Source of the DNA: Pohlia nutans
Lineage: Eukaryota > Streptophyta > Bryopsida > Bryales > Mniaceae
Assembly (NCBI GenBank): GCA_022496805.1
Contig: CM040102.1
Span: 2,867,501 to 2,931,500 of the forward strand
Length of the DNA stretch: 64,000 nucleotides
Direction of reading: 5' to 3'
The notes under the pieces are model-generated. The model was not told the origin of the DNA and made no database searches. It saw nothing but the letters and a program-made list of their open reading frames with translations. Position numbers and translations under genes: made by a program. Every line of letters begins with the position of its first letter. Within the stretch, counting starts at the first letter, position 1. Below, piece by piece: positions 1,031-33,174 of this stretch.

Positions 1031-1055
1031 TAACACGCATTTCGTTAAAACTGGA
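1031..1055 (+). repeat. Left terminal inverted repeat of the 11-kb element
   Basis: It pairs with 12031-12055 with 23 of 25 positions identical. The conserved core is CATTTCGTTAAA. Confidence 0.7.
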
Positions 1056-1169
1056 TTTACGCGCGAATCCCGGACTTTTTGAGCTGCTTAGAAATAGGGA
1101 GATGAGCCAGGGGAGGTCGCAAAAAATCAATAGAGAGGCCGTATTCAGAAGGAGGAATGCCTGAATTCT

Positions 1170-1275
1170 GTTGACAGGGAGAAATTGACAATCTGATTTT
1201 CTGCGACAGGGAGTTATCTGCGGTCAGAATTTCTGCGACAGGGAATTATTTCAATTCCGGTTCCATGCGATAGGG
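1170..1275 (+). repeat. Short direct repeats near the left end of the element
   Basis: The phrase TCTGCGACAGGGA appears at about 1199 and 1231, with degenerate relatives before (GTTGACAGGGAG) and after (CCATGCGATAGGGAG). They may be subterminal binding repeats. Confidence 0.45.
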
Positions 1276-2494
1276 AGGCCTCCCCATTGTCGTTTCCAAT
1301 GTTGGGGAGCCGTCCCCATCGATCGGTGTTTGATGGTTCCCGGGATGCTGTCCTTGGCTGTGATAGGGAGGTCTCCCTGCTGGCGCCTGTCCTCCTGTAC
1401 TAGAAGGGCAGTAGAGAGTCTGTAAAAACCATAGGTGTCATTACACTCAAAGCATCAGATGAAAGAAAACTGTATTTTAATTCAAATCGAGTACATGGGG
1501 ACATTCTTCCGCCAGAGTGCAAACTCTATTCAACGTCCAATGGCGGCTACTGTGATCGGCCTATATCCTACATGCCCCTAGTCACCGCCGGCCTCGGAGG
1601 CGGCGTGAGAGGCGGCCAGAACTGCCTTAGCTTGGCGTTGTCTGCATCCAACTTCGGAATCTTGCGAAGCGAGCTCTCCGTGAAGTTCACTTTGGGTGTA
1701 CTTCAGTACTTCCGTAGAGGATGGCAGTGCAATCCACCCAACAGACGGCGTTGTCGCTGCCATCGCGCTCCCACTTCACATCCCAACAACCTCTATACCG
1801 CTCCTCGTCACTGAGCTCGCGGCCTCCTCGGGCGGGCCTCCAATATCGGATTTGGCACTTACCGTGATGTGCGGAGCGGGCGTCACGAACGGCCGGTGCA
1901 AGCACCCTGCCTATCCACACTGGATAGATTGCGGGGTCGTTGGGCCTCACGAGGACAAAGTGCCCGACGAGGGCGTCATGGTACGGGTTGAATGCCGGTG
2001 TTGGTCGGCGGCGTAATGGACCGCACCAAGGATCGGGCACCTCGTCCTCCGGAGTTGCGTTGGCAAGATCCCTCTCCCTCCGCACTTCATCTGGTGCTGG
2101 CGGAGGAGGAGGGTGAGCCGTCGTCCAATCTATGGTCGGCCAGAATCCATACACGAGGGTCCTTGGGGCCAGCGGCGAATCCTCGGAGCGGAGTTCCGTG
2201 ATAATGTCCACCCAGTACTGCACGTATGCCTCCATTTGGCCCCTGTACGCCTCGCTACGATGGCAGCCTCCCCTCCAGATGTCCACGTATTTCTGGAGCC
2301 CCGCTCGGATGAAATGCTTCTTCTTGTGTGACCTTGCGGCGTCCTCTTCAGTCATCTCAGAGTTCGTGCTCGGGTTGACACCACGCTCGCATCCCCAGAC
2401 GGGCTTCATCTTCACCGGGGCGGGGTCACCTAAGACACACGGCGAATACAAGTCAGTCACTTCTAACATGGTAGGCCTCGGGCTACAAAACTCA

Positions 2495-3255
2495 GGAGAA
2501 CTGGGAAGGCCTCCCCACGAAGACTGCCCCTACGGTACTTCAACGACGGGTGGAGAGGCCTTTCCAGAAAGACTGCCCGTACACTTCCTCAACGACAGGA
2601 GGGGATGCCTCTCCCCGAAGACTCCCCCTACACTACCGCGAACACGGGTGGAGAGGCCTCTGCCGGAAGACTGCCCATACAATTCCTCGATGACAGGTGG
2701 GGAGGCCTCTCCAGGAAGACTCCCTCTACACTACCGCGAATACGGGTGGAGAGGCCTCTCTCGGAAGACTCCCCCTACACTACCGTGAATATGGGTGGAG
2801 AGGCCTCTCCAGGAAGACTGCCCATACAATTCCTCGACGACAGGTGGGGAGGCCTCTCTAGGATGACTCCCTCTACACTACCGCGATTACGGATGGAGAG
2901 GCCTCCCCACGAAGATTGCCCCTACAATACTTTGACGACGGGTGGAGAGGCCTCTCCAAGAAAACTGCCCGTACAATTCCTCGACGACAGATGGGGAGGC
3001 CTCTCCAGGAAGACTCCCCCTACACTACCGCAAATACGGGTAGAGAGGCCTCTCCAGGAAGACTGCCCATACAATTCCTCGACGACAGGTGGGGAGACCT
3101 CTCTAGGAAGACTCCCCCTACACTACCGCGAATACGGGTGGAGAGGCCTCTCTAGGAAGACTGCCCATACAATTCCTCGACGACAGGTGGGGAGGCCTTT
3201 CTAGGAAGACTCCCCCTACACTACCGCGAATACGGGTGGAGAGGCCTCTCCAAGA
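2495..3255 (+). repeat. 49-bp minisatellite in the transposase intron
   Basis: About 16 units have a period near 49 bp. Each carries a GGAGAGGCCTCTCC or GGGGAGGCCTCTCC dyad followed by AGGAAGACTnCCC. Two spacer types alternate (CTACACTACCGCGAATACGG and ATACAATTCCTCGACGACAG), giving a higher-order period near 98 bp. The array lies inside the intron 2430-3373 of the minus-strand gene. Confidence 0.85.
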
Positions 3256-4589
3256 AGACTGCCCACGACGAAGACCCCAAGATGTCCCGAAGTTGAGTAC
3301 TTCAATCGTAGAAGTAGACAGATAGGGAGGCATCCCCATTGGACATAATGAGCACGTATGGTAGGAAGCGTACCTGAAGGAAGCAATGGCCGACTGTCGC
3401 GGTCCTGCTTCGACATCCTGTGAGGGCCCGTTCGGGGCAGCCAGGACGCGTCTGTCGCAAATGCCTTGTACTGGAATACCGGCCACCCATCATTGTCCAC
3501 AAAGAAGCAAAAAATGTGCATTTTCTTCATCCCCTCGAGAGGCCGGACATAACCCTTTATGTATGACTTGAAGTCAGCCACCTCTTGGACCACGTGCGGC
3601 ATGAAACTGAGCTTCTGCGATTCCATGAAGTGCTTCATGAGATTGGCCAGCACGAACGTGTTGCTCTTTCTCAGTACATTGGAGAGGTAACTGAAGTATC
3701 CGTCGATGTCCTCGTGCGTAGGGCCAACCAGCAAAAATCCAACCTGAATCTGAACAAACACTTTTCGCGCAGTGAGTAATGAGAGGAAGGCAAAAACAAA
3801 CTGATTTTTTTTGTCCTTGGCGGAATTATCCAATTGTAGGTACAACCTCTTCGAGAGGGGGTCCCTATGATCAGCATCTGCGGTGGCCTCCGGAATCGCA
3901 GCTACACATCGGGACTTCCGTCGCATGATCTTTTCAAAGAACTGGTTCAGTGGTGGTTCCTCGAAAAGGCTTTTCGAATTCCGGATGGCCGGCCTCTCCA
4001 ACTTTTGTAAGCAATGGGCAAGGGAAGAGATGGTGAAGTTTGGATTGCGTAGCCACAGATCGGTAGAGAAGTCCGCATAGGCCCCGTCGCTGTGTCCGTG
4101 TGTTAGCATTCCAGTCAACGTCACCGGTAGCTGGCCGAGGCCCGCCGTGCTCTTGGTAATGACATGGAGGCTCGGAAGAGCTGTCTTCCGGCTGTCCATG
4201 TCGTCGTCAATTATGCACAGCACATCCGACCTGCTCATGTCCGACTCGCTCCTCCAGCTGTAGTAAAGGTGCCGACAGGACTGCTAGTGAGCAACATGAG
4301 CATCATAGAACCTCTGGTGGTAGAGTGCCTCTGTGCTATCCTTCCCCGCCGCGGCGATGAACTCGTTCAGTTCGTTACATTCGGATCACTTAGAAAATGG
4401 GTTGCCAGCTTTCTTGACGTCGACTTTCCTAAACACCCTCTACTTCATGCGGCTGATCATAGACTGCGACACAACGTCTATAACAACATTTGAGTTCACC
4501 AGCCAAAAGAAATATCCGTCAGGGACATAGCGTTGGACATCGGGAGCACTCCCTATCCGCAACTGCAGAGGACACCCCACTGATGAAAG

Positions 4590-4945
4590 AAACGATGCCC
4601 TCCCCATCCAAGAATAGGGAAACCTCTCCAGCAACCGCCCGTTGGATAGACGGTGGGGAGACCTCCCCATAGGACGACTGTCATCTCCATTCAGGATACT
4701 TCCACAGTGGAGAGCCCACCGTACACGCGACCAAAGATGGGCACCACATCTACAAAGCACAGAAGCCCTCCCTGCGAGTCGCGCATCAGATAAACTCTGG
4801 AGACACCTCCCAAAACGCCGCACATTATTCCGATTCCAAGATTCTCCAACTGCAGGGAGGCCCCCCTACAATACTCCCACATCCATACCATAAGGAGGCC
4901 TCCCTACAATACTCCCACATCCATACCATGAGGAGGCCTCCCGAC
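4590..4945 (+). repeat. Scattered dyads and a short direct repeat
   Basis: GGGAGACCTCCCC-like dyads occur near 4655, and a roughly 39-bp unit (GGAGGCCTCCC then TACAATACTCCCACATCCAT) occurs twice in 4855-4942, ending on a third dyad. This lies in the proposed first intron of the minus-strand gene. Confidence 0.6.
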
Positions 4946-5309
4946 CTCTGAGCGCACTCGGAATAGGTTGCTGGTGCGACACTAGTTAAAAAATAGGGTG
5001 AGGTGTTGAAATAGAGGAGGGCGCAGCGTGTGCTTACATTGTTCACTTTATCGCGGACGACCTGCCATGTGAATGAAACCGGCACGTACTTCTGCACGTC
5101 CTGCCGACCGTTGCCGATCCCCTTCATCGTTGTTTCCGGCATGACGTTGCAGGTATCATTGACGATGGCCAGTACCGTCCCTTCCGCCTGCACGGTCGCC
5201 GGCCGAAGCTTACATTGCCCTGAGTTGCCATGGCGTGCTCCACAAAACCCTTGCCGATATCTTTGCTTGTAATCGAAGAAGGTCCCGCGCCCGAATCGTG
5301 ACGAGGGCC

Positions 5310-5945
5310 ACTGTGGAGGCGAAGCGGTCGTCCTGGGCATCCGGGTGGGGAGACCTCCCCATCATTTAGCGCTTCACACGGAGGGCGAGGTGGGATTGGC
5401 TGCCCACCTGGCGCTCCGGCAAGCCTCCGTGAAGCGTGACGGGGGCGACCGAAGAGGCAAAGCGGTCGTCTCGGGCATCCGGGTGGGGAGACCTCCCCAT
5501 CATTTAGGGCTTCACACGGAGGCCGGGTGGGGTTGGCTGCCCACCTGGCGCTCCGAGTGGCCTCCGTGAAGCGTGACGGGGGCGACCATAGAGGCAAAGC
5601 GGTCGTCCCGGGCATCCGGGTGGAGAGACCTCTCCATCATTTAGCGCTTCACACGGAGGCCGAGGTGGGGTTGGCTGCCCACCTGACGCTCCGGGTGGCC
5701 TCCGTGAAGCGTGACGGGGGCGACCGTAGAGGCAAAGCGGTCGTCCCGGGCATCCGGGTGGGGAGACCTCCCCATCATTTAGCGCTCCACACGGAAGGCG
5801 AGGTGGGGTTGGCTGTCCACTTGGCGCTCCGGGAGGCCTCCGTGAAGCGTGACGGGGGCGACCGTAGAGGCGACGCGGTCGTCCCGGGCATCTGGGTGGG
5901 GAGACCTCCCCATCATTTAGCGCTCCACACGGAGGCCGAGGTAGG
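5310..5945 (+). repeat. 138-bp tandem repeat
   Basis: There are about 4.5 units; the phrase CCGGGTGGGGAGACCTCCCC starts near 5341, 5479, 5616, 5754 and 5892, a spacing of 137-138 bp. Each unit contains the dyad GGGGAGACCTCCCC, then TCATTTAGCGCTTCACACGG and a GCGTGACGGGGGCGACC segment. Long ORFs on both strands follow from the period being divisible by three; I do not treat them as genes. Confidence 0.85.
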
Positions 5946-6499
5946 GTTGGCTGCCGAATCCGAGCTCTAGGAGCACTCCCAACACCGCAATGGACTAATG
6001 GAGGCTGGCCATGGCAGGACCGCGGTTGTCCCGGCCTATCTGGGGGAGACCTACCTACGCGCCCCGTCTGGTAGGGAGACCTCCCCACTGGCATCCTAGG
6101 GCTCACATGTAGGGAGGCCTTCCTATGGGTAAGACAAATCCGATAGGCAGATCTCCCCTCCACGTGTCAGACGGGGATGAGTGTCGCCGGCGAAACAATA
6201 TTTCCGTACACGATAAATGACAAAAATAAAACCCTACAATAATTAAAACTAAAAACAAGGACAAAACATAAATGAACATAGCAGTAGGTGCCAAGAAACC
6301 CACCTGCCACGTAGGCGGCTGACGTCTGAAAGTACACGTATCAAGCGGTGGATGCGCCACGTCGTCACGACATTTAATACAGAAAGTACACGGAATTCAA
6401 GGATTGGATCAAATGAGCGAGCTCTCAAAATGGTTGGCCGCATTGAAATGGGGATTTGTTGTAGGGTTTCAAACTAATAGTTTCCCATCGTGGCTTTCT

Positions 6500-6760
6500 A
6501 TTGGTAGGCCTGCGCAGTCGTCGGATTGCACATATGGACGTCTCAGATGGCGCCACGTGTCCTGATATTTGGGAAGAAGTATAATATCCCTTATACACGG
6601 CCGAGACCCGGTCTTACACGGCTGAAACTCTGGCTACTCTAGCCTGTCGCAGTGGCGCGCGGACGACTGTCAGATCTAGGGCAGCCACCCTAAACCGTCG
6701 GATCAAGCCCAAGCGGCTCCGCCGCACTATATTAGGTCTTCCCAGACCTCATTTGTCTTC
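6500..6760 (+). promoter_or_regulatory. Putative plus-strand promoter inside the element
   Basis: A stretch with few dyads, unlike its neighbours, contains a G-box-like GCCACGTGTCC near 6551 and a TATA-like CACTATATTAGG near 6724. The repeat-rich ORFs lie downstream. It could serve as the central divergent promoter of the element; this is inference. Confidence 0.35.
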
Positions 6761-6910
6761 ACTCGCTTTTCCTGTCATCACGAAGCGCTGCCTAATTCCG
6801 GTCTCGTCGTCTTCGACGCAAATATCTTCGTCCACGGCTATGGGGTAAACTCCTCAACCTTGCCCAATTGTGCGTTCTATCTATTTTATATTGTCTCTGG
6901 GGAGCTCACC

Positions 6911-7243
6911 ATGGATCTCCCCATCCGTTTTGTAGAGAGGATTCCCCAGCCCATTGGCTCTGGAGCTCTCTCCATCAATGTGCGTGGAGAGCTCTCCCTA
7001 ACTGCGCGCGTAGGGAGATCTCCCGAGCAGCGTGCGTGGGGAGATCCCCCTAGGCGCGCGCGTGGGGAGCTTTCTGCCTTTTCCAGACAGCGCGCGTGGG
7101 GAGCTCTCTCTAGCAGCGTGCATGGGGAGCTCTCCCTAGGCGAGAGTGTGGGGAGCTCTCCCGAGACGAGAGCGTGGGGAGCTCTCCCTAGGCGCGCGTG
7201 TGGAGAGATCTCCCGAGCAGCGTCCGTGGGGAGATCTGCCTAG
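6911..7243 (+). CDS. Hypothetical repeat-derived ORF (110 aa)
   Basis: The ATG sits in good context (CTCACCATGGAT) 185 bases after the TATA-like site. The first 25 residues (MDLPIRFVERIPQPIGSGAL) look non-repetitive; the rest is translation of the 31-bp minisatellite. No known domain. It may be only a by-product of the repeats. Confidence 0.2.
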   Translation: MDLPIRFVERIPQPIGSGALSINVRGELSLTARVGRSPEQRAWGDPPRRARGELSAFSRQRAWGALSSSVHGELSLGESVGSSPETRAWGALPRRACGEISRAASVGRSA

Positions 7244-8330
7244 GCTCGTGTGGGAAGTTCTCTCCAGCAACGTGCGTGGAGAGCTCTCCCTGAGCGCGAG
7301 CGTAGGGAGCTCTCCCTGAGCGCGAGCGTAGGGAGCTCTCCCTGAGCGCGAGCGTAGGGAGCTCTCCCTAGGCGAGAGCGTGGAGAGCTCTCTCGAGGCG
7401 AGAGCGTGGGGAGCTCTCCCTAGGCGCGCGCGTGGGGAGATCTCCCGAGCAGCGTCCGTGGGGAGATCTGCCTAGGCGCGCGTGGGGAGCTTTCTCCAGC
7501 AACGTGCGTGGAGAGCTCTGCCTAAGCGCGAGCGTGGGGAGCTCTTCCTAGGCGAGAGCGTGGGGAGCTCTTTCTAGGCGCGCGCGTTGGGAGATCTCCT
7601 AAGCAGCGTCCGTGGGGAGAACTGCTTAGGTGCGCGCGTGGGGAGCTCTCTCCAGCAACGTGCGTGGAGAGCTCTCCCTAAGCGCGAGCGTGGGGAGCTC
7701 TCTCTAGGCGCTTGCGTAGGAAGATCTCCCGAGCAGCGTCCGTGGGGAGATTTCCCTAGGCACGGGCGTGGGGAGCTCTCCCCAGCAGCGCGCGTGGGGA
7801 GCTCTCTCGAGCAGCATGCATTGGGAGCTCTCTCTAAGCGCGAGCGTGGGGAGCTCTCTCTAGGCGCGCGCGTGGGGAGATCTCCCGAGCAGCGTCTGTG
7901 GGGAGATGTGCCTAGGCCCGCGCGTAGGGAGCTCTACCCAGTAGCGCGCGTGGGAAGCTCTCTCCAGCAACGTGTGTGGAGAGCTCTCCCTAAGCGTGAG
8001 CGTGGGGAGCTCTCCCTAGGCGCGCTAGTAGGGAGATCTCCTCAGCAGAGTGCTTGGAGAGATCTCCTTAGGCGCGCGCGTAGGAAGTTTTCCCAGGCAG
8101 CGCGCGTGGGGAGCTCTCTCCAACAGCGTGCGTGGGGAACTCTCCCAAGCAGCGTGCATATGGAGCTCTCTCGGGCAGCGTCCGTGGGGAGATCTCTCTA
8201 GGCGCGCGCGTGGGGAGCTCTCCCTAGCTGTGCGCGTGGGGAGCTCTCTCTAGCAGCGTGCGTAGGAAGCTCTACCTAGGGCGCGTGGAGAGTTCTCCCC
8301 GAACGCGTGGTCGGTGTCTTGACTGAATCG
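6955..8330 (+). repeat. 31-bp minisatellite, about 44 units
   Basis: The unit is roughly GTGGGGAGCTCTCCCTAGGC plus GCGCGC, with a period near 31 bp. The dyad core alternates between GAGCTC (SacI-like) and AGATCT (BglII-like), and spacers alternate between TAGGCGCGCGC, CAGCAACGTGC, GAGCAGCGTCC and TAAGCGCGAGC types. Because 31 is not a multiple of three, an open frame cycles through the three translations with a superperiod of 31 residues. Confidence 0.85.
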
Positions 8331-8465
8331 ACAGTGCGTGGAGGATTTATTAAATGTGAGTGATGTACTTGACGCACCGCCTGAGAACACCGGGGACAAC
8401 ATTCGTCCACGGCATAATGATCCTCTGGATCGTCAGGTGCCGGCAGTCTCAAATGACCAAGTCGC

Positions 8466-8490
8466 GGGGGGGGGGGGGGGGGGGGGGGGG
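8466..8490 (+). repeat. Run of 25 consecutive G
   Basis: A perfect G homopolymer inside a GC-rich ORF region. Its length is likely variable and hard to sequence, and slippage would change the frame linking the ORFs on either side. Confidence 0.9.
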
Positions 8491-8623
8491 AGTACGTCGA
8501 CCGCTGTCACCTCCTGCTGTTCGACAAAGGAATGGCCGGCGGAACGCAGAGATAGAGAGGGCCCCCTAGCGCATTGGTGCAAGGATTCCAATCAGCCGAC
8601 GGCAAACCCATGCATATGGCGCC

Positions 8624-10027
8624 CAAGACTCGTTTGACGTGGACAACCCCGTGAACTTGTCATCCGATGCGTCGGTGCACAAGATGCACACAGAGCCTCG
8701 CCGCGATAGGGAGCCCTACCTATCGGAGCGCAGCACACACACCGAGGATCATGGGCGATCAGAGGAGGCATCCGTATCCCAGCTCAACACTTACATGGAG
8801 CTTGGCCGCGGAGGGGAGCCCTTCCTATCCCAGCCCAGCATACATAGTCCGCCTGGACTAGAGCAAGAGCCCTCCCCATCGCAGCGCAATGCGCACAACG
8901 TGCCGGGCCGAGACAAGGAGTCCTCTATATCTAAGCGTGACACGTACACACCACGTGGCCGGCATAGGGAGCCTTCTCTATCGCAGCGAAGCACGCACCG
9001 TGTGCCTAGCCGTGACAGGGAGCCCTCCTTGTCCCCGCGCACCGCGCTCATTCCTCCTGCATTGAATCGGGATCCCTCGCGATCGCAACCCAACACGCGC
9101 ATTGAGCATCTCCAAGACATGGAGCCCTTCCTATTCCCGCGCAGTACTCACAGTCAGCCGCATGTAGAGGGGGAGGCCTCCCTATCGCACGGTCATGTTC
9201 GACCTCATGGGGAGCCCGCCCCATCGGCCCAAGCCGCGTCTGAATAGGTAGGCCTAGATGGGGAGCCCTCCCCACCGTTGTTGACCGGGAAAGCTCTCAA
9301 GTCCCTCCTGCATGGAATGGAGGCATCCAGCCCTGGTGGGGAGTCATCGGTGGTTGTGCAGCCCTTCGCGTCTGCTGTACCAGAGTGCGAAACACAGGAC
9401 CCTCGAGAGGGGGAGGCCTCCCTATCGCAGAAGGGTTTGCAGAAGGGTGCAAGGAAGAGGAAGGCTTCCGAGCGACAGCCACTGGACCTCGACAGCCAGA
9501 GGTCTGACCTCGAGGACGCTGCTGCGAGTGACGTCCGTAGGTCCAGTCGGGAACGGCAGCCAGTCGTTTTCCCGGACATGACCACTTCGGCCCATGGTCG
9601 AGCTGCTCTTGCACGAGGGAAGGGCCGGGTGCAAAGGGAGCCCATAGTCGCGGACTTGGAGGTGTGGCCTCTGTCAACACTTAGGGGAGTTCACCTTCTC
9701 CTTTTCTCTCCCCCACTGAGCCAGGCGGCTATGCAGGGAGTGCCCGGCTGGGTGCTGGACGCATTCGCGGGGCCTCTCTCAGCACACCTTTGGGATCAGG
9801 TACCCTCTTCTTTGTCGGGTCTGAATCCACTGGCGATGGCGGCTTCCAATCGCTTTCCCAGAAGGCGGCAAGGCGTCCCTGGTCAAAGGCGGCAAGGCGT
9901 CCCTGGTCAAAGGCGCCCGCTTCCGAAGGTGGCAAGAACGTGGGGGCCTTTGACCCCAACGCAGATCGAAGGAATGATGACGAGCATGTCTGAGGCCCCC
10001 GACACTTACATGTCTCCAGGTAGATAG
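8624..10027 (+). pseudogene. Repeat-rich ORF with one in-frame TAG, element-encoded, function unknown
   Basis: One frame stays open from about 8624 to the TAA at 10025-10027 except for TAG at 9245-9247; no ATG is obvious and an upstream exon is likely. The first part (8690-9190) is a 20-residue repeat with consensus REPSLSQRSTH. The second part has a basic patch (KGARKRKASERQPLD) and RSSRERQPVVFPD, which recall short DNA- or chromatin-binding tails, then a hydrophobic stretch (GVHLLLFSPPLSQAAM) and LWDQ next to a possible donor (CAG|GTACCC, 9798/9799). Near the end a 24-bp unit (AAGGCGTCCCTGGTCAAAGG) is duplicated. I recognise no family. It may be an accessory protein of the element, comparable in position to TnpA-like proteins; that is a guess. 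Confidence 0.4.
8690..9190 (+). repeat. 60-bp in-frame repeat encoding REPSLSQRSTH
   Basis: About nine units of 60 bp (20 codons). The dyad GGGAGCCCTCCCTATCG sits in each, read as (R)EPSLS. Unlike the 31-bp array, the period is a multiple of three, so the peptide repeat is kept. Confidence 0.8.
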
Positions 10028-10280
10028 GGAGGCCTCTCCTCTTAGAATCTCGACCTGCATCTTTTTTGGCTGCCCTCAGAACTGTAATGGACCGCTTTTG
10101 CAATGTAGGTCTTGAAATTTCGATAATTGAAAATTAAAAAGAAAATGTCTCCAGGTAGATAAGGAGGCCTCTTCTCTTAGAATCTCGGCTCATATATATG
10201 TTGGATGCCCTCAGAACTGTAATGGACTGCTTTTGCAATGTAGGTCCTGAAATTTCGATAATTGAAAATAAAATAAAAAA
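10010..10280 (+). repeat. 135-bp tandem duplication
   Basis: 10010-10144 is repeated at 10145-10280: ATGTCTCCAGGTAGAT, GAGGCCTCTyCTCTTAGAAT, CCCTCAGAACTGTAATGGAC, AAATTTCGATAATTGAAAAT. It overlaps the end of the preceding ORF and probably its 3' region. Confidence 0.85.
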
Positions 10281-10541
10281 ATCCGGAAGTTTGCGCTTGG
10301 GGAGCCCTCCCAATGTGATTCCTGCATGTTTAATTAGACCCTAGGATTTCATGAGTGAGGCTGCCTTCATAGGGAGGCCTCCCCGTCCATTGTCTAGTAT
10401 GCCATGACATGACTCGTCGTTCTAATCCATGCACGTGGTACAAACTGCTCATCGTTTGTATCCCGCGCAGACCGGTCGCCTCTGCTCTCTCCACTGCAAA
10501 TAGTAGATTTTCCGCGGCTGGATTCGCTAGCGCAGCCGACC

Positions 10542-11171
10542 TTGTCTCCGGGCACGTGGTCAACATTCTTTCTCGTACTCGACGTGAATGGACTGGTGTG
10601 TGACTCTGACTTCAGTGGCGCTCGCGATATTCGGTGGAGGGATAACTTGCAAAGTTTCCTGAATTTCTGCTTTGCCCGATTGGAGGTGGTTTTCTGGTCT
10701 GCATGTGGTCAGAGGAAATTGGCCCGATACAAGAAAGGACTTCAAGGTATCACCCGAGTGATTATGAGGTTAGACCAAATTTTTGGCCAGGAAATGTGTG
10801 TTGTCTCCAAGTACATGGATCCCTCGAACCCGGACAAGCCCATTTTCCTAAAGCCACTTGCCATGTTATTCAAAAACTGCCCTTAGGCAAACGAGTCAAA
10901 CACACTCCTCATCGACAACTCACCCGACAAGAGTTGCATGAATGATCCTCGCAACTCCATCCACCCGTTTACATACCGCTCGAGAGAACCAGAGTCGTCA
11001 CTCTCCGGGCTCGTGGCATTGCGCAGCTGGCTACTGAAGTTGCGTGAGTGGAGCCAAGACATTCAGGAGTTCATTGAAATGAATAGACCCCCGTGCTTTA
11101 CACCACCTATTGCAACTAACCCCGAGCGTGTGACACTCCTTCTAGAAAGGCTGCCGGCCGTTGCAACCTAA
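10542..11171 (+). pseudogene. FCP1/NIF-like HAD phosphatase remnant
   Basis: A single frame is open from 10542 to TAA 11169-11171 except for TAG at 10884-10886. It reads FFLVLDVNGLVCD (HAD motif I position), FCFARLEVVFWSACGQ, PDKPIFLKPLAMLF and, after the stop, TLLIDNSPDKSCMNDPRNSI with HPFTYRS. This is the order expected in the FCP1-like (NLI-interacting factor-like) family. The second Asp of DxD(G/N)-type motif I is Asn (DVNG), so catalysis would be doubtful even without the stop. No ATG is visible upstream in frame, so a 5' exon is missing or spliced in. It lies inside the large element and looks like a captured host domain. The family call rests on motif order. Confidence 0.6.
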
Positions 11172-12030
11172 AACCTACATCAAGTACTTAGCTGGTACTT
11201 TAGAAAACCTTCTCTATCCAAACTCTGGATGAACCACAGTGGTATTGAATTTGTAATAAGACTTGTCGGAAGTTTGTAAACGATGAATTTCATTATTGAT
11301 CCTTGTTGTGAATGTTCATTGCTTTCTTACGTGTGCTTGTTTTCCAAGAGATCGGTGGGGGGTTGCGGGGAGGCCACGGGCCGCATTGTTTGATAGTCCC
11401 TCTACGTGTTTAGGGAGGTCTCCCTAAACCAAGCGTCTAGGGCCTTCGAGTCGGGTCCTCATGGGGAGCCCTCCCTGATCTCCCTTATGGCTTGCAGCTC
11501 TTCGGGTGACCCCTAGCAGTCGTTGGCAATCCACAGTTGGCACACCTGGGCAGCCATCCCGATGCGCTTCTAGCTCTCCTCTTCGTTTTCGGTATGTAAT
11601 TCACACTGTACTTGAAGTTGTTACCACCAAGGTATCAAAAATATCTAGTTACCACTACGGGACATTCCAGTGTTTGTTTCAAACTCCCCTGTCGTCACTT
11701 CCTTGCCCCGCAAACCAAGGTATGGAGCTCACGACATCCACTGATCCTGAATAGGAAGTTCTCCCTAACGGGTAATAGCCTGATATCCCCGTAGTTGGTA
11801 GTTATGCCCCCCACGCGGGTCGAATTTTGCACACTTCAGGGAGATCTCCCTAGACACTACGCGGGTCTGCCCATTTTTCGTGCACTTGCACGCTATTGCT
11901 GCGAGCAACCACCTCTCCGATAGGGAGGCCCTCCCTATCGATAGCTGCTCTGGATAGGGAGATATCGCGTCGTCGGACCCATCTCCCTATTCAGAAATCT
12001 TCCCATGCCTTAATTCTAGACTCAAATCAG
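11172..12030. other. Right end of the 11-kb element, no gene seen
   Basis: It contains a likely 3' region of the phosphatase remnant (to about 11340), then scattered dyads such as GGGAGATCTCCCT (about 11841) and GATAGGGAGGCCCTCCCTATC (about 11918), the last ones before the right inverted repeat. Confidence 0.5.
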
Positions 12031-12055
12031 TCCAGATTTAACGAAATGTGTGTTA
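12031..12055 (-). repeat. Right terminal inverted repeat of the 11-kb element
   Basis: The reverse complement reads TAACACACATTTCGTTAAAT then CTGGA, pairing with 1031-1055. Confidence 0.7.
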
Positions 12056-15111: not shown

Positions 15112-15702
15112 TAATAAAGAATGATATGATATAATTCAAACCTAAGTTCTAAATAAAATTTTAAAATATATATCATTGACCCCGTGCCCCTGCAACTAGT
15201 ACCCCCAAAACCCCAGAATCCCAGAACCCCAGGACCCCAGAACCGCAGAACCCTCGAACCCTGTGCGGGTGTTGACTTGGTCCTTCCGTGTCCCCCGCAC
15301 CCGTCGTGCCAAGTGCACAGATGCTCAACCTTACAGCCATGGAGGGAGCATTCAAAGCAGCCATTTCATTGCGGCAGTGGAGAGTCAGGGTGCTTGTGTA
15401 GTTCATCGCGATCGCGTGTATGTCTCAGTTTGTCTCGTCTTTGATCACCGTGTGTCTGAATTTGTGGCTTCTTGCACATGAGGCTAGGGTTCGAGGCAAA
15501 TCAATGCGATCTCACCACAACTAGTAGTACCGTCATCGTTGTCTGTAGATTTTTCTTGTAGACCCTGCCTGAATTAGAAGTGCGCTTGTGGTCACGGTGT
15601 TAGTTGTAGGAGGCCAGCCCTCGCTTTGCCATTTCTGGAGGAAGAAATTATTGAGATTTAAGTTAAAGGAGGACGAATCGTAGTTGGACCATTTTGACAA
15701 CC

Positions 15703-17637
15703 ATGGACGAAGTATTTGATTTTTCCGGGTTCTCGTGTCAGTTCAAGTTGCAAATTATGCGGGCACTAAAGAAGATCTCATCGTTCCCGGAATCTTTACA
15801 ATTGCGTTTATCGCGTCTTCAGGGTCGTCAGGCGGAGCTGGTACTCGACGACATTGGATGGTTCTCGTCTGATTGGGAAGAGCCCGCGATAGTGTCAACG
15901 AGGGAGCAGACTGAGCGGCTTTTGAAGGCAGTGATAGAGGAGATAGAGTCAAAAATAAAAACGAAAAAGAAATTCTTGTACATATTTTCTATAAGTCTGC
16001 ATGATTTTCACATCCCATTCCTCCCGGAATCGATAACTCTGAAACGGTTTCCAATCCCTTGTCATGGTATAGCTTGTAGATTCGGGATGGCTGACCTCAT
16101 AGCTTTAGACAGATCGATTAAGCGGAATGAGGAGGCTGGCACGTTCTATGCATGGCGTATCCCAATGCTTTTTGACATGTTGGATTGCAATATAACTGTC
16201 TCATACCAGAAAGACAAAAGATGGCACCTAGAGCGATACATCGAAACCATCGGCGAAGGTGTGTCAGCTTCTAAACTTGAAGACGCCTTCACCGTCGTCG
16301 TTGCGGCAGTGCTCCACCTGTTGTCTTTTGTATTCCAGTACCTCATCGGGTATGTGGACAGGGGTGGCTCCAAAACCTACTCCTCTGGATCCTTCGACTT
16401 CAGAGCCACCTTTGTCTCTCTTGTGCTCTTCCAAGGCGCCTACGTCTGGATCAAATTCAGACAAGCAGCTCGCTCTGCATGCCGCAAGCGCAAAGCTTTC
16501 AATACGCTATCTGACGGAAGTATTTATCGTAGAGCCTACAAGGATCATACAATATCTGACACCATCAGACACTACAGGTATGAGCCTAGATTCACTCCAC
16601 CGAGAGTGGAAGCCGACGAAGCCGACGAGGAAACTAGTCGTCTCCCTCTCGGCGGGTACGCCACTCATGGTGAGGCCAACTTTGTGCTTCAAGTAGCTCG
16701 GTTCTACAACATGCCTTATGGCAAGGATGGAGGTTGTGTGGAGCTTGAGAATGGTCTGTTCAAGTTTATCATTCCACCTATGAGTGAGCAAGGGTTGGTA
16801 GGCGAGGGTAAGAGGATATGGGTTGCAAACAAAGCGAAGGAATTAGGGACACAAATGTATGCAGACTTCCAAAAGGAGATGGAGAAGGCGAAGCAATTGG
16901 GCATGGCTGGATCAAGTGACCCTTCTCCGCGTCTTCTTCTAGTCGCATGTTTACCTCCAACCACAATTGCAAGGGAGCCTGTAATTGAGACCGAAGCTCC
17001 ATCGCGCCCGAATTCATCGTCATTACCTCCATACGATGGCACAGTTGGTGGTTCTTTCCACCCTCTTTCTCTTTCAGATTTTGACTCAATGACGAATGAG
17101 CTTTTCGGTCCGGGATTGCCAAATCCTTCAGCTCTACAATCAAGTCTTGGGGACGCATGTAGTATCGAGAACCTCACCCCGGCAAATGTACCCACTGACT
17201 TGCTTGTCCCACACGAAACGCGTCCCCAAGGATTTGGTCAAGTTCTTGGAGATTCAAGTACATTACAAGGTGAAGGTGTCACACGCGGTATTGAGCATGG
17301 TGAAGAGACCCAATTGAGCCCTAGCCTCAATTTGCAGCAAAGGAGCGATGCAGTCGCAGAGAACATCGATACCCCTATATTCAGTCTCTTTCGTCAGAAA
17401 AGTGACTCAGTCCTTCTACGATTGGTGGATTCTCAGAAGAAGGAAATCATGAATCTTCATTCGCGGATTGTTGACTATGATCATCGACTGACAGTATCGG
17501 AGATAGAAAAGTCGGAGCTCCAACAAGTGGTTCAACGTTTACGAGACGAGAAGCAACAAGAGAAGGAACTTTTTGAGCAGGAGAATGAGCGTATGAAAAA
17601 GAAGTTGGAAGAAGTGGAGAATGACCGTTGGTGGTGA
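15703..17637 (+). CDS. Membrane-anchored coiled-coil protein, tandem family copy 1 (644 aa)
   Basis: I do not recognise this family. The ATG at 15703 has near-ideal context (ACAACCATGGAC). What can be seen: a soluble N-terminal third with SSDWEEPAIVSTREQTERLL (about 55-74); two hydrophobic segments at about 196-217 (VVVAAVLHLLSFVFQYLIGY) and 235-251 (ATFVSLVLFQGAYVWI) separated by a Ser/Gly-rich loop; a Lys/Arg-rich flank (ACRKRKAF); a conserved segment with PLGGYATHGEANFVLQVARF; a Ser/Pro-rich linker (about 400-550); and a C-terminal heptad-rich coiled coil (about 560-640). The shape suggests an integral membrane protein that oligomerises through its tail. Compared with copy 3, the 3' end is deleted by about 137 bp, so the original stop is lost and the protein ends NDRWW. 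A 21-bp segment of the coil is also absent. It has a single exon. It may still be functional. Confidence 0.75.
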   Translation: MDEVFDFSGFSCQFKLQIMRALKKISSFPESLQLRLSRLQGRQAELVLDDIGWFSSDWEEPAIVSTREQTERLLKAVIEEIESKIKTKKKFLYIFSISLHDFHIPFLPESITLKRFPIPCHGIACRFGMADLIALDRSIKRNEEAGTFYAWRIPMLFDMLDCNITVSYQKDKRWHLERYIETIGEGVSASKLEDAFTVVVAAVLHLLSFVFQYLIGYVDRGGSKTYSSGSFDFRATFVSLVLFQGAYVWIKFRQAARSACRKRKAFNTLSDGSIYRRAYKDHTISDTIRHYRYEPRFTPPRVEADEADEETSRLPLGGYATHGEANFVLQVARFYNMPYGKDGGCVELENGLFKFIIPPMSEQGLVGEGKRIWVANKAKELGTQMYADFQKEMEKAKQLGMAGSSDPSPRLLLVACLPPTTIAREPVIETEAPSRPNSSSLPPYDGTVGGSFHPLSLSDFDSMTNELFGPGLPNPSALQSSLGDACSIENLTPANVPTDLLVPHETRPQGFGQVLGDSSTLQGEGVTRGIEHGEETQLSPSLNLQQRSDAVAENIDTPIFSLFRQKSDSVLLRLVDSQKKEIMNLHSRIVDYDHRLTVSEIEKSELQQVVQRLRDEKQQEKELFEQENERMKKKLEEVENDRWW

Positions 17638-20702: not shown

Positions 20703-21080
20703 GAGTTATCCTTAAAGTCCATCAAATTTTGAAGAAGACACCATGAATTTTTCTTTATTATACACTTATTTTTTCACTCCAAACAGTTAGAAGGTGTGAA
20801 AGATCTTGGTGGTTTATCATTATTAGGTGTGTAAGACGTGTGTAAGAGCTTGGTGGTCTTCAAAAGTTTTCGAAAGTTTTTTAGTTCCTTTCTTGGTGCT
20901 AAAAAACTTTCAAAAACTTTTGAAGACCACTAAGCTCTTACACACCTCTTACACACCTAATAATGATAAACCACCAAAATCTTCAAAACCCTTTAACTAT
21001 TTAGAGTGAACAAATTAGAGTATGGTAAAGTAAAATTCTTTGTAGATTCATCAAACTCAAGGTGACTTTACAGATAACTC
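20703..21080. mobile_element. Foldback MITE with long inverted arms
   Basis: The ends are GAGTTATCCTTAAAGTCC and GGTGACTTTACAGATAACTC. Arms of over 100 bp (GGTTTATCATTATTAGGTGT, GTGTAAGAGCTTGGTGGTCT) pair with each other around an AAAGTTTT-rich centre. Relatives are at 27762-28129, 47867-48244, 50678-51024 and, diverged, 55088-55497. Confidence 0.8.
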
Positions 21081-22721: not shown

Positions 22722-22827
22722 GCATTGACCCCAACGGAACCCAAGAATCCCTGAACCCCAGGACCCCTGAACTCCAGAACCCCAGGATCCCAGAACTCCA
22801 GAACCCCAGGACTCAAGAACTCCATAA

Positions 22828-23464: not shown

Positions 23465-23871
23465 TTATGCCAAGTGCACAGATGCTCAACCTTATAAGTT
23501 AGCGATGGAGGAAGCATATATTCGAAGCGGCCATTTCATTGCGGCAGTGGAGAGTCAGGCTGCTCGTGTAGTTCATTGCGATCGCATGTCTGTCTCACTT
23601 TGTCTCGTCTTTGCTTACCGTGTGTCTGGATTCGTGGCTTCTTGCACAAGAGGCTAGGGTTTGAGGCAAATCAATGCGATCTCGTCACAACTAGTAGTAC
23701 CGTCATCGTTGTCTGTAGATATTTCTTGTAGACCCCGCCTAAATTACAAGTGCGCTTGTGGTCACGGTGTTAGTTGTAGGAGGCAGCCCTAGCTTTGCCA
23801 TTTCTGGAGGAAGAAATTATTGAGATGTAAGTTAAAGGAGGACGAATCATAGTTGGACCATTTTGACAACC

Positions 23872-25848
23872 ATGGACAAATTATTCGATTTATCCGGGCT
23901 CTCGGGTCAGTTCAAGTCGCAAATTATGCAAGCACTGGAGAAAACCTTCTCGTTCCCGGAACCTTTACGAGTGCTTTTATCTGAGCTTTTCCCGGAACCT
24001 TTACGAGTGCTTTTACGAGTGCTTTTATCTGAGCTTCAGGATTGTCGGGTGAACAAGAACTTGACGAAATGTGGCTTAAGCTTGGACGGTTTTCGTCTGA
24101 TTGGGAAGAGCCCGCGATAGTGTCAACGAAGGAGCAGACTGAGCGACTTTTGAAGGCAGTGATAGAAGAGATAGAGTCAAAAATAAAAACGGAAGAGGAA
24201 CTCTTGTCCAATTTTTCTGTAAGTCTGCATGCTTTTCTCATCCCAGTCCTCCCGGAATCAAGAACTCTGAAACGGTTTCCAATCCCCTGTCATAGTATAG
24301 CTCGTAGATTTGGGATGGCCGACCTCATAGCTTTAGACAGATCGATTACACGGATCGAGAAGGATGACACGTTCACTGCATCTGTCTTCCAGTACGATTG
24401 TGCTCATGCCAATGCTTTTTGACATGTTGGATTGCAATATAAGTGTCTCATACCAGAAAGACAAAAGATGGCACCTAGAGCGATACATCGAAAGCATCAG
24501 CAAAGAAAGCATCAGTGAAGGTGTGTCGTCTTCTGAACTTGAAGACGCCTTCACCGTTGTCGTTGCGGCAGTGCTCCACCTGTTGTCTTTTGTATTCCAG
24601 TACCTCATCCGGTATGTGGACAGAGGTGGCTCCAAAACCTACTCCTCTGGATCCTTCGACTTTAGAGCCACCTTTGTCTCCCTTGTGCTCTTCCAAGGCG
24701 CCTACGTCTGGATCAAATTCAGACAAGCAGCTCGCTCTGCCTGCCGCAAGCGCAAAGCTTTCGATACGCTAGCTGAGGGAAGTATTTATCCGAGAGCCTA
24801 CAAGGATACAATATCCCAAACCATCACACACTACAGGTATGAGCCTAGGTTCACTCCACCGAGAGAGGAAGCCGACGAGGAAACTAGTCGTCTTCCTCTC
24901 GGCGGGTACGCCACTCATGGTGAGGCTAACTTCGTGCTTCAAGTAGCTCGGTTCTACTACATGCCTTATGGCAAAGATGGAGGTTGTGTGGAGCTTGAGA
25001 ATGGTCTGTTCAAGTTTATCATTCCACCTATGAGTGAGCAAGGGTTGGTAGGCGAGGGTAAGAGGACATGGGTTGCAAACAAAGCGAAGGAATTGGGGAC
25101 ACAAATGTATGCAGACTTCCAAAAGGAGATGGAGAAAGCGAAGCAATTGGGCATGGCTTCTGATGCAGGATCAAGTGATCCTTCTGTGTCTGCATTACCC
25201 GTCACATGTTCGTCTCCTACCACAATTGCAAGGGAGCCTGTAATTGAGACCGAAGCTCCATCGTGCCCGAGTTCGTTGTCATTGCCTCTATGCAATGGCA
25301 CAGTTGGTGTTACTTTCGACACTCTTTCAGATTTTGACTATGTGATTGATGAGCTTTTCGGTCCGGGATTGCCAAATCTTCCACCTCTACAATCAAGTCT
25401 TCTCCCATACGAAATGAACTCCCAAGGATTTTCTCAAATCCTTGGAGATTCGAGTACCCCACAAGGTGAAGGTGTCACACGGGGTATTGAGCATGGTGAA
25501 GAGACTCAATTGAGCCCTAGCCTCAATTTTCAGCAAGGGAGCGATGCAGTCACAGAGAACATCGATGCCCCTATATTCAGTCTCTTCAGTCAGAAAAGTA
25601 ACTCAGTCCTTTTAAAGATGGTGGATTCTCAGAAGGAAGAAATCATGAATCTTCATTCACAGTTTGTTGTCTTTGATCATCGACTGAAACTATTGGAGAT
25701 AGAAAAGTTGGAGCTCCAACAAGAGGTTCAATGTTTACGATACGAGAAGCAAAAAGTTCCTTCTCGAAAAATTATATGGTCTGTGAATGGCATTTTTAAT
25801 ATGATATTGTATGTCATTTGCATTGGTGGAAACTCCGCGCGATCTTAG
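23872..25848 (+). pseudogene. Tandem family copy 2, frameshifted and 3'-deleted
   Basis: The ATG at 23872 has the same context as the other copies. A local tandem duplication (TTCCCGGAACCTTTACGAG, 23952-24036) lengthens the N-terminus. A frameshift near 24036-24050 sends the frame into TAG at 24118-24120, leaving 82 codons. A second frameshift near 24400 restores the original frame, so both membrane segments and most of the downstream sequence (from MLFDMLDCNISVSYQK) still read cleanly. At the 3' end, homology stops at 25750. Then come 15 bases (AAAAAGTTCCTTCTC) that are the reverse complement of the missing coding sequence, then DNA that lies about 730 bp further on in unit 1. The coiled-coil tail is gone. 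A residual transcript is possible; a full protein is not. Confidence 0.8.
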
Positions 25849-27761: not shown

Positions 27762-28129
27762 GAGTTATCCATAAAGTCCATCAAATTTTGAAGAAGACAC
27801 CATGAATTTTTCTTTATTATACTCTTATTTTTTCACTCCAAATAGTTAGAAGGTGTGAAAGATCTTGGTGGTTTATCATTATTAGGTGTGTAAGAGGTGT
27901 GTAAGAGCTTGGTGGTCTTCAAAAGTTTTTTTATTCCTTTTTTGGTGCTAAAAAACTTTTGAAAACTTTTGAAGATCACCAAGCTCTTACACACCTCTTA
28001 CACACCTAATAATGATAGACCACCAAAATCTTCAACACCTTTTAACTATTTAGAGTGAACAAATTAGAGTATAGTAAAGTAAAATTCTTTGTAGATTCAT
28101 CAAACTCAAGGTGACTTTACGGATAACTC
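27762..28129. mobile_element. Foldback MITE (unit 2 copy)
   Basis: Orthologous to 20703-21080, with the same ends and flanks. Confidence 0.75.
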
Positions 28130-30624: not shown

Positions 30625-31194
30625 GTTCTAAATAAAATTTAAAAACATATAACATTGACCCCAAGCCCCTGCCACTACCCAAGAATCCCAGAACCCCAGA
30701 ATTCGAGGACCCCAGAACTCCAGAACCCCAGGACTCAAGAACTCCATAACCCCAGAACCCTGTGGGGGGTGTTGACTTGCTCCTTCCGTGTCCCCCGCAC
30801 CTTTTATGCCAAGTGCACAGATGCTCAACCTTATAGCGATGGAGGGAGCATTCGAAGCGGCCATTTCATTGCGGCAGTGGTGAGTCAGGGTGCTCGTGTA
30901 GTTCATTGCGATCGCATGTCTGTCTCATTTTGTTGCTTACCGTGTGTCTGGATTCGTGGCTTGTTGCACATGAGGCTAGGGTTCGAGGCAAATCAATGCG
31001 ATCTCGTCACAACTAGTAATACCGTCATCGTTGTCTGTAAATTTTTCTTTTAGACCCTGCCTAAATTACAAGTGCGCTTGTGGTCACGGTGTTAGTTGTA
31101 GGAGGCCAGCCCTCGCTTTGCCATTTCTGGAGGAAGAAATTATTGAGATATAAGTTAAAGGAGGACGAATCGTAGTTGGACCATTTTGACAACC

Positions 31195-33174
31195 ATGGAC
31201 GAATTATTTGATTTTTCCGGGTTCTCATGTCAGTTCAAGTTGCAAATTATGCGGGCACTAGAGAAGATGTCATCGTTCCCGGAATCTTCACAATTGCTTT
31301 TATCTTGTCTTCGGGCTCGTCGGGTGGAGCTAGAACTCGACGATAAACTTGGACGGTTTTCGTCTGATTGGGAAGAGCCCGCGATAGTATCAACGAGGGA
31401 GCAGACTGAGCGGCTTTTGACGGCAGTGACACAGGAGATAGAGTCAAAAATAATAACGCAAAAGAAATTCTTGTCCATTTCTTTAACAAGTCTGGATGCT
31501 TTTCACATCCCATTCCTCCCGGAATCAAGATTTCTGAAACGGTCTCCAATCCGCTGTCACAGGATAGCTCGTAGATTTGGGATGGCTGACCTCATAGCTT
31601 TAGACAGATCGATTAAGCGGATCGAGGAGGATGACACGTTCAGTGCATCTATGACGCTTTGGTTCATGCCAAAGCTTTTTAACAGGTTGGATTGCAATAA
31701 AAGTGTCTCATACCAGAAAGACAAAAGATGGTACCTACAGCGATACATCGAAAGCATCAGCGAAGGTGTGTCGTCTTCTGAACTTGAAGACGCATTCACC
31801 GTCGTCGTTGCGGCAGTGCTCCACCTGTTGTCTTTTGTATTCCAGTACCTCATCGGGTATGTGGACAGGGGTGGCTCCAAAACCTACTCCTCTGGATCCT
31901 TCGACTTCAGAGCCACCTTTGTCTCTCTTGTGCTCTTCCAAGGCGCCTACGTCTGGATCAAATTCAGACAAGCAGCTCGCTCTGCCTGCCGCAAGCGCAA
32001 AGCTTTCGATACGCTATCTGAGGGAAGTATTTATCGTAGAGCCTACAAGGATCATACAATATCTGACACCATCAGACACTACAGGTATGAGCCTAGATTC
32101 ACTCCACCGAGAGTGGAAGCCGACGAGGAAACTAGTCGTCTCCCTCTCGGCGGGTACGCCACTCATGGTGAGGCCAACTTTGTGCTTCAAGTAGGTCGGT
32201 TGTACTACATGCCTTATGGCAAGGATGGAGGTTGTGTGGAGCTTGAGAATGGTCTGTTCAAGTTTATCATTCCACCTATGAGTGAGCAAGGGTTGGTAGG
32301 CGAGGGTAAGAGGACATGGGTCGCAAACAAAGCGAAGGAATTGGGGACACAAATGTATGCAGACTTCCAAAAGGAGATGGAGAAGGCGAAGCAATTGGGC
32401 ATGGCTTCTGATGCAGGATCAAGTGATCCTTCTGTGTCTGCAGTACCCGTCACATGTTCATCTCCTACCACAATTGCAAGGGAGCCTGTAATTGTGACCG
32501 AAGCTCCATCGTGCCCGAATTCATCGTCATTACCTCCATGCGATGGCACAGTTGTTGGTTCTTTCGACACTCGTTCAGATTCTGACTATGTGATTGATGA
32601 GCTTTCCGGTCCGGGATTGCCAGATCTTCCACCTCTACAATCAAGCCTTGTTCCATATGAAATGCACTCCCAAGGATTTGCTCAAATCCTTGGAGATTCG
32701 AGTACCCCACAAGGTGAAGGTGTCACACGGGGTATTGAGCATGGTGAAGAGACTCAATTGAGCCCTAGCCTCAATTTTCAGCAAGGGAGCGATGCAGTCA
32801 CAGAGAACATCGATGCCCCTATATTCAGTCTCTTTCATCAGAAAAGCGACTCAGTCCTTCTAAAGATGGCGGATTCTCAGAAGGAACAAATCATGAATCT
32901 TCATTCACGGATTGTTGTCTTTGATCATCTACTGAAACTATTGGAGATAGAAAAGTTGGAGCTCCAACAAGAGGTTCGACGTTTACGATACGAGAAGCAA
33001 CAAGAGAAGGAACTATTTGAGCAGGAGAAGGAGTGTTTGCATCAGGAGAATGAGCGTATGAAAAAGAAGTTGGAACAAGTGGAGAATGAGCGTTTGCAGG
33101 AGAATGAGCATTTGAAAAGCACGTTGGAACAAGTGGCAAAAAGTTTAAGTTACAGAGGCATTGAGAAATCCTAG
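31195..33174 (+). CDS. Membrane-anchored coiled-coil protein, tandem family copy 3 (659 aa, complete)
   Basis: The best-preserved family member. The ATG at 31195 is in strong context (ACAACCATGGAC); it is a single exon ending TAG. It has the same layout as copy 1: SSDWEEPAIVSTREQTERLL, two hydrophobic segments (VVVAAVLHLLSFVFQYLIGY and ATFVSLVLFQGAYVWI, about 198-255) separated by a Ser/Gly-rich loop, a basic juxtamembrane stretch, a conserved block around PLGGYATHGEANFVLQV, a low-complexity Ser/Pro-rich linker, and a long coiled coil. The coil extends further than in copy 1, with near-repeats NERMKKKLEQVENERL and NEHLKSTLEQVAK, and ends RGIEKS. I know no family match. Likely location is a cellular membrane, with the basic flank and coil probably on the cytosolic side. 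Function cannot be stated from the sequence. Confidence 0.8.
   Translation: MDELFDFSGFSCQFKLQIMRALEKMSSFPESSQLLLSCLRARRVELELDDKLGRFSSDWEEPAIVSTREQTERLLTAVTQEIESKIITQKKFLSISLTSLDAFHIPFLPESRFLKRSPIRCHRIARRFGMADLIALDRSIKRIEEDDTFSASMTLWFMPKLFNRLDCNKSVSYQKDKRWYLQRYIESISEGVSSSELEDAFTVVVAAVLHLLSFVFQYLIGYVDRGGSKTYSSGSFDFRATFVSLVLFQGAYVWIKFRQAARSACRKRKAFDTLSEGSIYRRAYKDHTISDTIRHYRYEPRFTPPRVEADEETSRLPLGGYATHGEANFVLQVGRLYYMPYGKDGGCVELENGLFKFIIPPMSEQGLVGEGKRTWVANKAKELGTQMYADFQKEMEKAKQLGMASDAGSSDPSVSAVPVTCSSPTTIAREPVIVTEAPSCPNSSSLPPCDGTVVGSFDTRSDSDYVIDELSGPGLPDLPPLQSSLVPYEMHSQGFAQILGDSSTPQGEGVTRGIEHGEETQLSPSLNFQQGSDAVTENIDAPIFSLFHQKSDSVLLKMADSQKEQIMNLHSRIVVFDHLLKLLEIEKLELQQEVRRLRYEKQQEKELFEQEKECLHQENERMKKKLEQVENERLQENEHLKSTLEQVAKSLSYRGIEKS

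Follow-up and report, generated by a model that had tools for sequence, protein, structure and literature searches.

The 64-kb window analyzed here (positions 2,867,501 to 2,931,500 of contig CM040102.1 in assembly GCA_022496805.1 of the moss Pohlia nutans; the coordinates used below count from its first letter) contains, at 1031-12055, a block delimited by inverted ends and by borders in GC content, which is best explained as a single copy, now decayed, of a cut-and-paste DNA transposon with two divergent genes. Its identity as a transposon is supported by the inverted ends, by the predicted DDE/D-type fold of a relative of the DUF7869 protein encoded by its first gene, and by public proteins in which further copies or relatives of each gene can be recognised. 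Within this element the exact palindromic dyad GGGAGNNCTCCC occurs 30 times, compared to none in the remaining 53 kb of the window, and 77 dyads are found when one mismatch is allowed, compared to two outside (at 42888 and 46035). The whole analysis rests on this one copy, which is dead, both genes being interrupted by in-frame stops, and the exon borders given below were predicted by eye.

The left terminal inverted repeat, TAACACGCATTTCGTTAAAACTGGA, lies at 1031..1055 on the forward strand and pairs with the right one at 12031..12055 on the reverse strand. The two 25-bp ends are identical at 23 positions, which agrees with the two mismatches given in a preliminary description of this DNA, as does the sharp shift in GC content that it reported at both ends: GC content is 0.45-0.67 inside the element, compared to 0.32-0.40 in the nearest flanking windows, although one flanking window farther from the element reaches 0.47. 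Among 1978 random inverted pairs, one scored as well as the element ends, and no further site matching the end consensus with six or fewer mismatches was found anywhere in the 64 kb. The ends read TAACACG/A. The flanks of this single copy would allow a target duplication of AG, TA or an imperfect AAGT/AAGC, varying with the placement of the ends, and no 3-bp direct repeat was found at the flanks under any of four readings of the ends; a TA duplication, which is a trait of Tc1/mariner elements, is compatible with the flanks, yet it is not the only one that fits.

Gene 1, on the reverse strand, is the DUF7869-type transposase-like gene that the preliminary description had placed in the block. 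Its catalytic exon (exon B, 3374..4545) carries the DUF7869 domain (Pfam PF25273, E 3.7e-41), which is the sole Pfam family in that exon; tnp2 was not matched there, and no MULE family appeared among the Pfam matches of gene 1 up to E 1. Exon A (5038..5292) is aligned by tblastn with residues 358-447 of the Physcomitrium protein P0023 (E 7.8e-12) and is separated from exon B by a predicted intron (4546..5037, acceptor uncertain) with dyads, including those of 38-bp repeats at 4856-4942. On the other side of exon B, a second predicted intron (2430..3373, GT-AG), which holds a 49-bp array at 2502-3265, is followed by exon C (1690..2429), which is without a dyad and encodes the C-terminal part of the DUF7869 protein, homologous to residues 398-637 of P0002. 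The in-frame stops of exon B are at 4440-4442, 4386-4388 and 4284-4286. DUF7869 is predicted to have the fold of a DDE/D transposase, that is, an RNase H-like fold with D, D and E/D at the canonical places; comparison of the DUF7869 profile with PDB chains by sequence gave no match, and no paper on DUF7869 was found in a literature search whose coverage excluded subscription papers and Repbase.

Gene 2, on the forward strand, encodes a fast-changing protein and has a repeat-rich exon (8335..10019, predicted borders) which contains in-frame dyads and is 69-82% identical to P0111 by tblastn. It continues through a predicted GT-AG intron (10020..10470), with dyads that lie partly within a 135-bp duplication, to a last exon (10471..11171) encoding a NIF-like HAD domain that is 31% identical to the NIF protein P0113 (E 2e-19). 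In-frame stops are present at 9245-9247 in the repeat-rich exon and at 10884-10886 in the last exon. The Pfam matches of the gene 2 pieces are weak, and NIF is the only one borne out by the comparison with P0113, which itself has no match among PDB chains; P0111 and P0112 have no Pfam matches. Gene 2 also contains a run of 25 G at 8466-8490, in place of which P0111 has two glycines and P0115 five, so that the run may have expanded locally or may be a fault of the assembly.

The argument about the dyad must be carried by its enrichment inside the element rather than by its absence elsewhere, because base composition predicts a mere 0.012 exact dyads outside; the zero observed there matches composition and is uninformative. 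Dinucleotide shuffles of the element alone contained on average 0.03 exact dyads (at most 1 in 100 shuffles) and 0.99 dyads with up to one mismatch (at most 4). When every 5-bp dyad with a spacer of 0-8 was counted, with no dyad singled out in advance, GGGAG-N2-CTCCC came first in the element, in its total (30) as well as in its number outside the six arrays (10 exact). Across 17 overlapping flanking stretches as long as the element, no dyad exceeded a count of 6, and those that reached it are AT-rich. Chance palindromes are rejected by the shuffle counts and by this ranking. The substitution spectrum of the decayed sites, in which 104 of 149 changes are C>T or G>A, is uninformative, because the bases of the site are mostly G or C.

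The dyads are confined to particular compartments of the element. The earlier statement that they occur throughout the block and not outside it holds for the contrast between inside and outside, but several exons and an intergenic stretch proved to be free of them. Besides dyad clusters at both ends and an in-frame coding repeat in gene 2, the element contains tandem arrays whose units measure 49, 38, 138, 26 and 135 bp. Dyads with at most one mismatch are found in the introns, at both ends, in the 138-bp array (5293..5955), in the 26-bp array (6982..8299; about 50 copies with 13 exact dyads, and a related array in the copy P0115) and in the repeat-rich exon of gene 2. The cluster at the left end (1273..1377) has exact dyads at 1273 and 1366 and one with a single mismatch at 1305, and that at the right end (11413..11850) has exact dyads at 11413, 11464 and 11839 and one with a single mismatch at 11754. 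The gene 1 intron with the 49-bp array has seven one-mismatch dyads and no exact dyad, the first of the seven lying 38 nt past the donor. No site within two mismatches is present in exons A and C of gene 1, in the NIF exon of gene 2 or in the 660-bp stretch between the divergent genes (6181..6840), which is probably a two-way promoter, and the single site in exon B falls on the predicted splice border (4542).

It could be supposed that these are neutral minisatellites, that is, GC-rich tandem repeats grown by slippage, in which the shared dyad is a by-product of descent from one seed, and the concentration of 52 of the 77 near-exact sites in four tandem arrays is consistent with this. When the dyads in eight arrays or regions were masked, however, 26 of the 28 pairs showed no similarity above that of 30 shuffles, and the two remaining similar pairs were dyads that had escaped the mask. 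Because the masked arrays and regions are unrelated, the dyad must have been acquired or kept several times in unrelated sequence. Ten exact dyads, moreover, stand outside all six arrays; a sister family, represented by the proteins P0006 and P0044, keeps the dyad on a different repeat of about 47 bp (our own count); and the sequence flanking the sites carries little information beyond 20 bp. Neutral growth from one seed is therefore rejected as highly improbable.

The full extent of the site was determined from a profile of the near-exact sites that do not belong to the four main arrays; of these 25, seven come from the gene 2 coding repeats and are mutually related. Preferences reach 4 bp beyond the dyad on each side, which gives a 20-bp palindrome, GATRGGGAGNNCTCCCYATC, beyond which no flanking position carries more than 0.40 bit; of the central bases, the first is nearly free and the second is C in 18 of the 25 sites. 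The half-site GATAGGGAG is present 11 times in the element and not at all outside it, both strands being counted. A 12-mer that contains the half-site, AATAGGGAGATG (chosen by eye), has exactly two occurrences in the 64 kb, and these lie in mirror orientation at subterminal positions: one at 1093..1104 on the forward strand, 62 bp inward of the left end, and the other at 11980..11991 on the reverse strand, 64 bp inward of the right end.

A palindrome of this kind need not be recognised as duplex DNA. Its nine-base arms could fold as a short hairpin in RNA or in single-stranded DNA, and might act in that form in, for example, splicing or RNA silencing. At the most variable arm pair, complementary double changes are rare (1 site of 59 and 1 of 53), and the combinations at the pair -1/+13 look like those of two bases that vary independently (n=53: A-T 13, A-C 9, G-C 9, G-T 8, others 14); the mismatch thresholds of this test bias it against double changes, and the block of the 49-bp array was left out. 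The hairpin is rejected on these counts and is the least probable of the explanations weighed here, and half-sites that vary without paired changes fit a dimer bound to the duplex instead.

Comparison with other proteins indicates how far the dyad has been retained. There are 110 proteins that match gene 1, including P0001, with 81% identity across 58% of the query, and the named relatives come from mosses, a liverwort and a sea urchin. P0006 and P0044, which by tblastn are 66 and 70% identical to gene 1, continue past the end of the exon into the intron at the counterpart position of gene 1, and the tails that result read the dyad in a frame that rotates from one site to the next (DGERSPS, MGSAPHP, GWGALPIP), at a spacing of about 47 bp; because the frames rotate, it is the DNA that is conserved and not the protein. 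In the window the first intron site is at nt 38; in P0006 it is at about nt 41, as we counted it on the translated sequence. A strict three-frame pattern for the dyad has six matches each in P0006 and P0044, compared to 0.28-0.29 in shuffled sequence, and eight in P0111 and six in P0112, compared to 0.76 and 0.80. Across 113 proteins, more than two matches were found in four (8, 6, 6 and 6), two in 2, one in 19 and none in 88. Since the pattern is visible just where a protein happens to extend into an intron, or in gene 2, its absence from other proteins says little, and the dyad is documented in few relatives. P0111 and P0115 are, at the protein level, further copies of gene 2, and P0115 includes an array of the 26-bp type which is arranged differently; P0112 is a more distant homologue that shares the exon end MSEAPDT.MSP and keeps the dyad-encoding peptides. 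P0001, P0006, P0044, P0111, P0112 and P0115 are encoded on contigs from metagenome or other records. Scans for paired dyads yielded 10 stretches in viral contigs, none of them an array and each with 2-3 dyads, and at least 117 stretches in genome contigs, where plant contamination is possible, the 80 listed being titled as prokaryote, mostly Actinobacteria; protein-guided scans of viral contigs with P0001, A1 and A2 found no relative. As a separate observation, three of nine long DUF7869 relatives that were scanned (P0031, P0034 and P0037) have sub-threshold N-terminal matches to TNP1/EN/SPM (PF03017; E 0.023, 0.043 and 6.6e-4), which are absent from the other six; judged from these matches, a link between DUF7869 and CACTA proteins is possible.

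That the dyad serves as a protein binding site is well supported, as far as sequence can indicate: it is present in repeats that are unrelated in all other respects, and the sister family has it too. The symmetry of the site, the unpaired changes in its half-sites, its avoidance of conserved exons and its recurrence in unrelated repeats point further to a binder that is dimeric and specific to the family. The preliminary description had proposed a site for a transposase or a silencing factor, and its broader suggestion, that the motif is bound by protein, gains support. The silencing factor fares less well. A host protein could bind the dyad either as a transcription activator which the element exploits or as a silencing factor which marks the element, and since the symmetry fits any sequence-specific dimer, it fits a host protein too, in favour of which nothing specific can be cited; nor is the lack of exact dyads in the 53 kb of flanks an objection, given how few are expected there. 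However, the intergenic stretch, where an activator would act, has no dyads, and an element would not be expected to gather sites for a factor that silences it, so that a host factor of either kind is improbable.

The main rival is that the dyads are transposition sites, bound by the transposase or by a TnpA-like helper which pairs the ends, and spread inward by tandem duplication with no separate role in silencing. It owes this position to the mirrored half-sites near the ends, together with the precedent of CACTA elements, in which a helper protein recognises subterminal repeats (PMC2613891). The dyads in both end regions and the weak TNP1/EN/SPM matches in three of the nine long relatives are also in keeping with it. 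Yet most of the dyads lie in the interior of the element, and almost 4 kb separate the densest array (6982-8299) from the end closest to it, whereas the repeats of the soybean CACTA element reach no farther than 159 and 732 bp from its ends (PMC2613891); in addition, pairing sites deep inside an element could misdirect excision. We consider a role confined to transposition unlikely, though by no means negligible.

A closer parallel is provided by the VANDAL elements of Arabidopsis, which also correct the earlier remark that no described plant transposon has such pervasive internal motifs, since VANDALs carry the motif of their VANC proteins as tandem repeats (PMC5735166). VANC21 binds YAGTATTAY and VANC6 another word; each motif makes up tandem repeats within non-coding portions of the respective VANDAL, and these are not the same from one related element to the next. 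Tandem repeats are also a frequent companion of the variable regions in VANC proteins (PMC5735166). The hypomethylation linked to VANC spans whole elements (PMC5735166; PMC10398659), and VANDALs are themselves MULEs (PMC6446971). The moss element is like them in that a short motif has been multiplied as tandem repeats in its own non-coding parts and diverges between related families, and in that it has an extra gene, gene 2, whose variable regions are tied to tandem repeats. It is unlike them in being a DUF7869 element with a 20-bp palindrome, where the VANDAL is a MULE with a non-palindromic motif of 9 bases, and in having sites in coding repeats as well; membership among VANDALs is rejected because gene 1 encodes DUF7869 and no MULE transposase. 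CACTA (En/Spm) elements, for their part, share with it the repeated short motifs near both ends (PMC2613891) and the combination of a transposase with a DNA-binding helper, helper binding in the moss element being putative; the moss element, however, lacks CACTA ends, its motif fills the interior and its catalytic domain is DUF7869, and with no CACTA termini, no 3-bp duplication and no tnp2, membership in this group is likewise rejected. Tc1/mariner transposases (Mos1, SETMAR/Metnase) are also among the closest known systems, and other DUF7869 proteins (Ceratodon, Physcomitrium, Riccia, Lytechinus), which are known from proteins alone, share the catalytic domain at 30-46% identity to gene 1.

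Because the parallel with VANC is strong, an anti-silencing role is favoured for the dyad. By this analogy, a protein encoded by the element, with gene 2 as the favoured candidate for its source, would bind GATRGGGAGNNCTCCCYATC as a symmetric dimer on duplex DNA; the sites would have been gathered repeatedly, through separate tandem duplications, in the introns, at both ends and in the variable exon of gene 2; and the bound protein would coat the entire element and keep silencing marks off it, in the way that VANC acts on VANDAL elements. We hold this proposal tentatively, with somewhat less than even confidence. The ratio of observed to expected CpG, at 0.84 for the element compared to 0.43-0.66 outside it, is mildly in favour of low methylation.

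Several observations weigh against the proposal or reduce the force of its evidence. For the CpG ratio, GC content is a confounder. The number of independent gains of the dyad must be far below the number of sites, because in addition to the 52 near-exact sites in the four tandem arrays, seven more lie in the coding repeat. With 79% identity between them, P0006 and P0044 count as one sister family, and the dyads of that family were read from protein translations and not from DNA. The NIF tail of gene 2 is not a DNA-binding fold, and Pfam DNA-binding domains were found neither in the gene 2 pieces nor in P0111 or P0112. The symmetric half-sites near both ends, finally, fit a role in transposition equally well.

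The window is plant DNA: the flanks contain open reading frames (ORFs) for a TOD1/MUCI70 glycosyltransferase and an F-box/KIB-type protein and pieces of PGAP2IP, and tblastn of the 113 proteins against the window gave no match beyond the element borders at E 1e-5. Three direct copies of a unit of about 7-8 kb are represented at 15441-17634, 23611-25845 and 30933-33171; their ORFs, of up to 671 aa, have no Pfam match among the long ones, and 300-bp pieces of the copies are 68-100% identical. Repeats of the 8-bp ACCCCAGA type are situated shortly ahead of each unit, at 15203-15261, 22737-22824 and 30677-30760. Four related fold-back elements, similar to miniature inverted-repeat transposable elements, lie at 20703-21080, 27762-28129, 47867-48244 and 50698-51014, with arms of 148-186 bp that are 82-85% complementary and 6-32 bp apart.

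A transposon saturated with the motif of its own protein is known, and VANDAL is the clear precedent; what is new in the moss element is the class of transposase, the plant lineage, the palindromic form of the site and the presence of sites within coding sequence. Literature searches on moss transposable elements, Sola elements, TnpA and subterminal repeats, NLI interacting factors and anti-silencing, in a collection without subscription papers and Repbase, brought up no description of this element, and the one paper that combined a palindromic motif with anti-silencing concerns VANDAL. It is possible, and we put it forward with a shade more reserve than the anti-silencing role itself, that a bryophyte DUF7869 element coated by way of a 20-bp palindrome represents a second, independent origin of self-protection, and that motif saturation is a general anti-silencing strategy. 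If this is true, DUF7869, a Pfam domain of unknown function, would be identified as a DDE/D transposase domain, and a new sequence-specific DNA-binding or anti-silencing protein could be studied in genetically tractable mosses. Transposons that recognise themselves through saturation with a motif would then have arisen convergently in mosses and in the relatives of Arabidopsis, and coating would be an escape from silencing to which plant transposons have resorted repeatedly.

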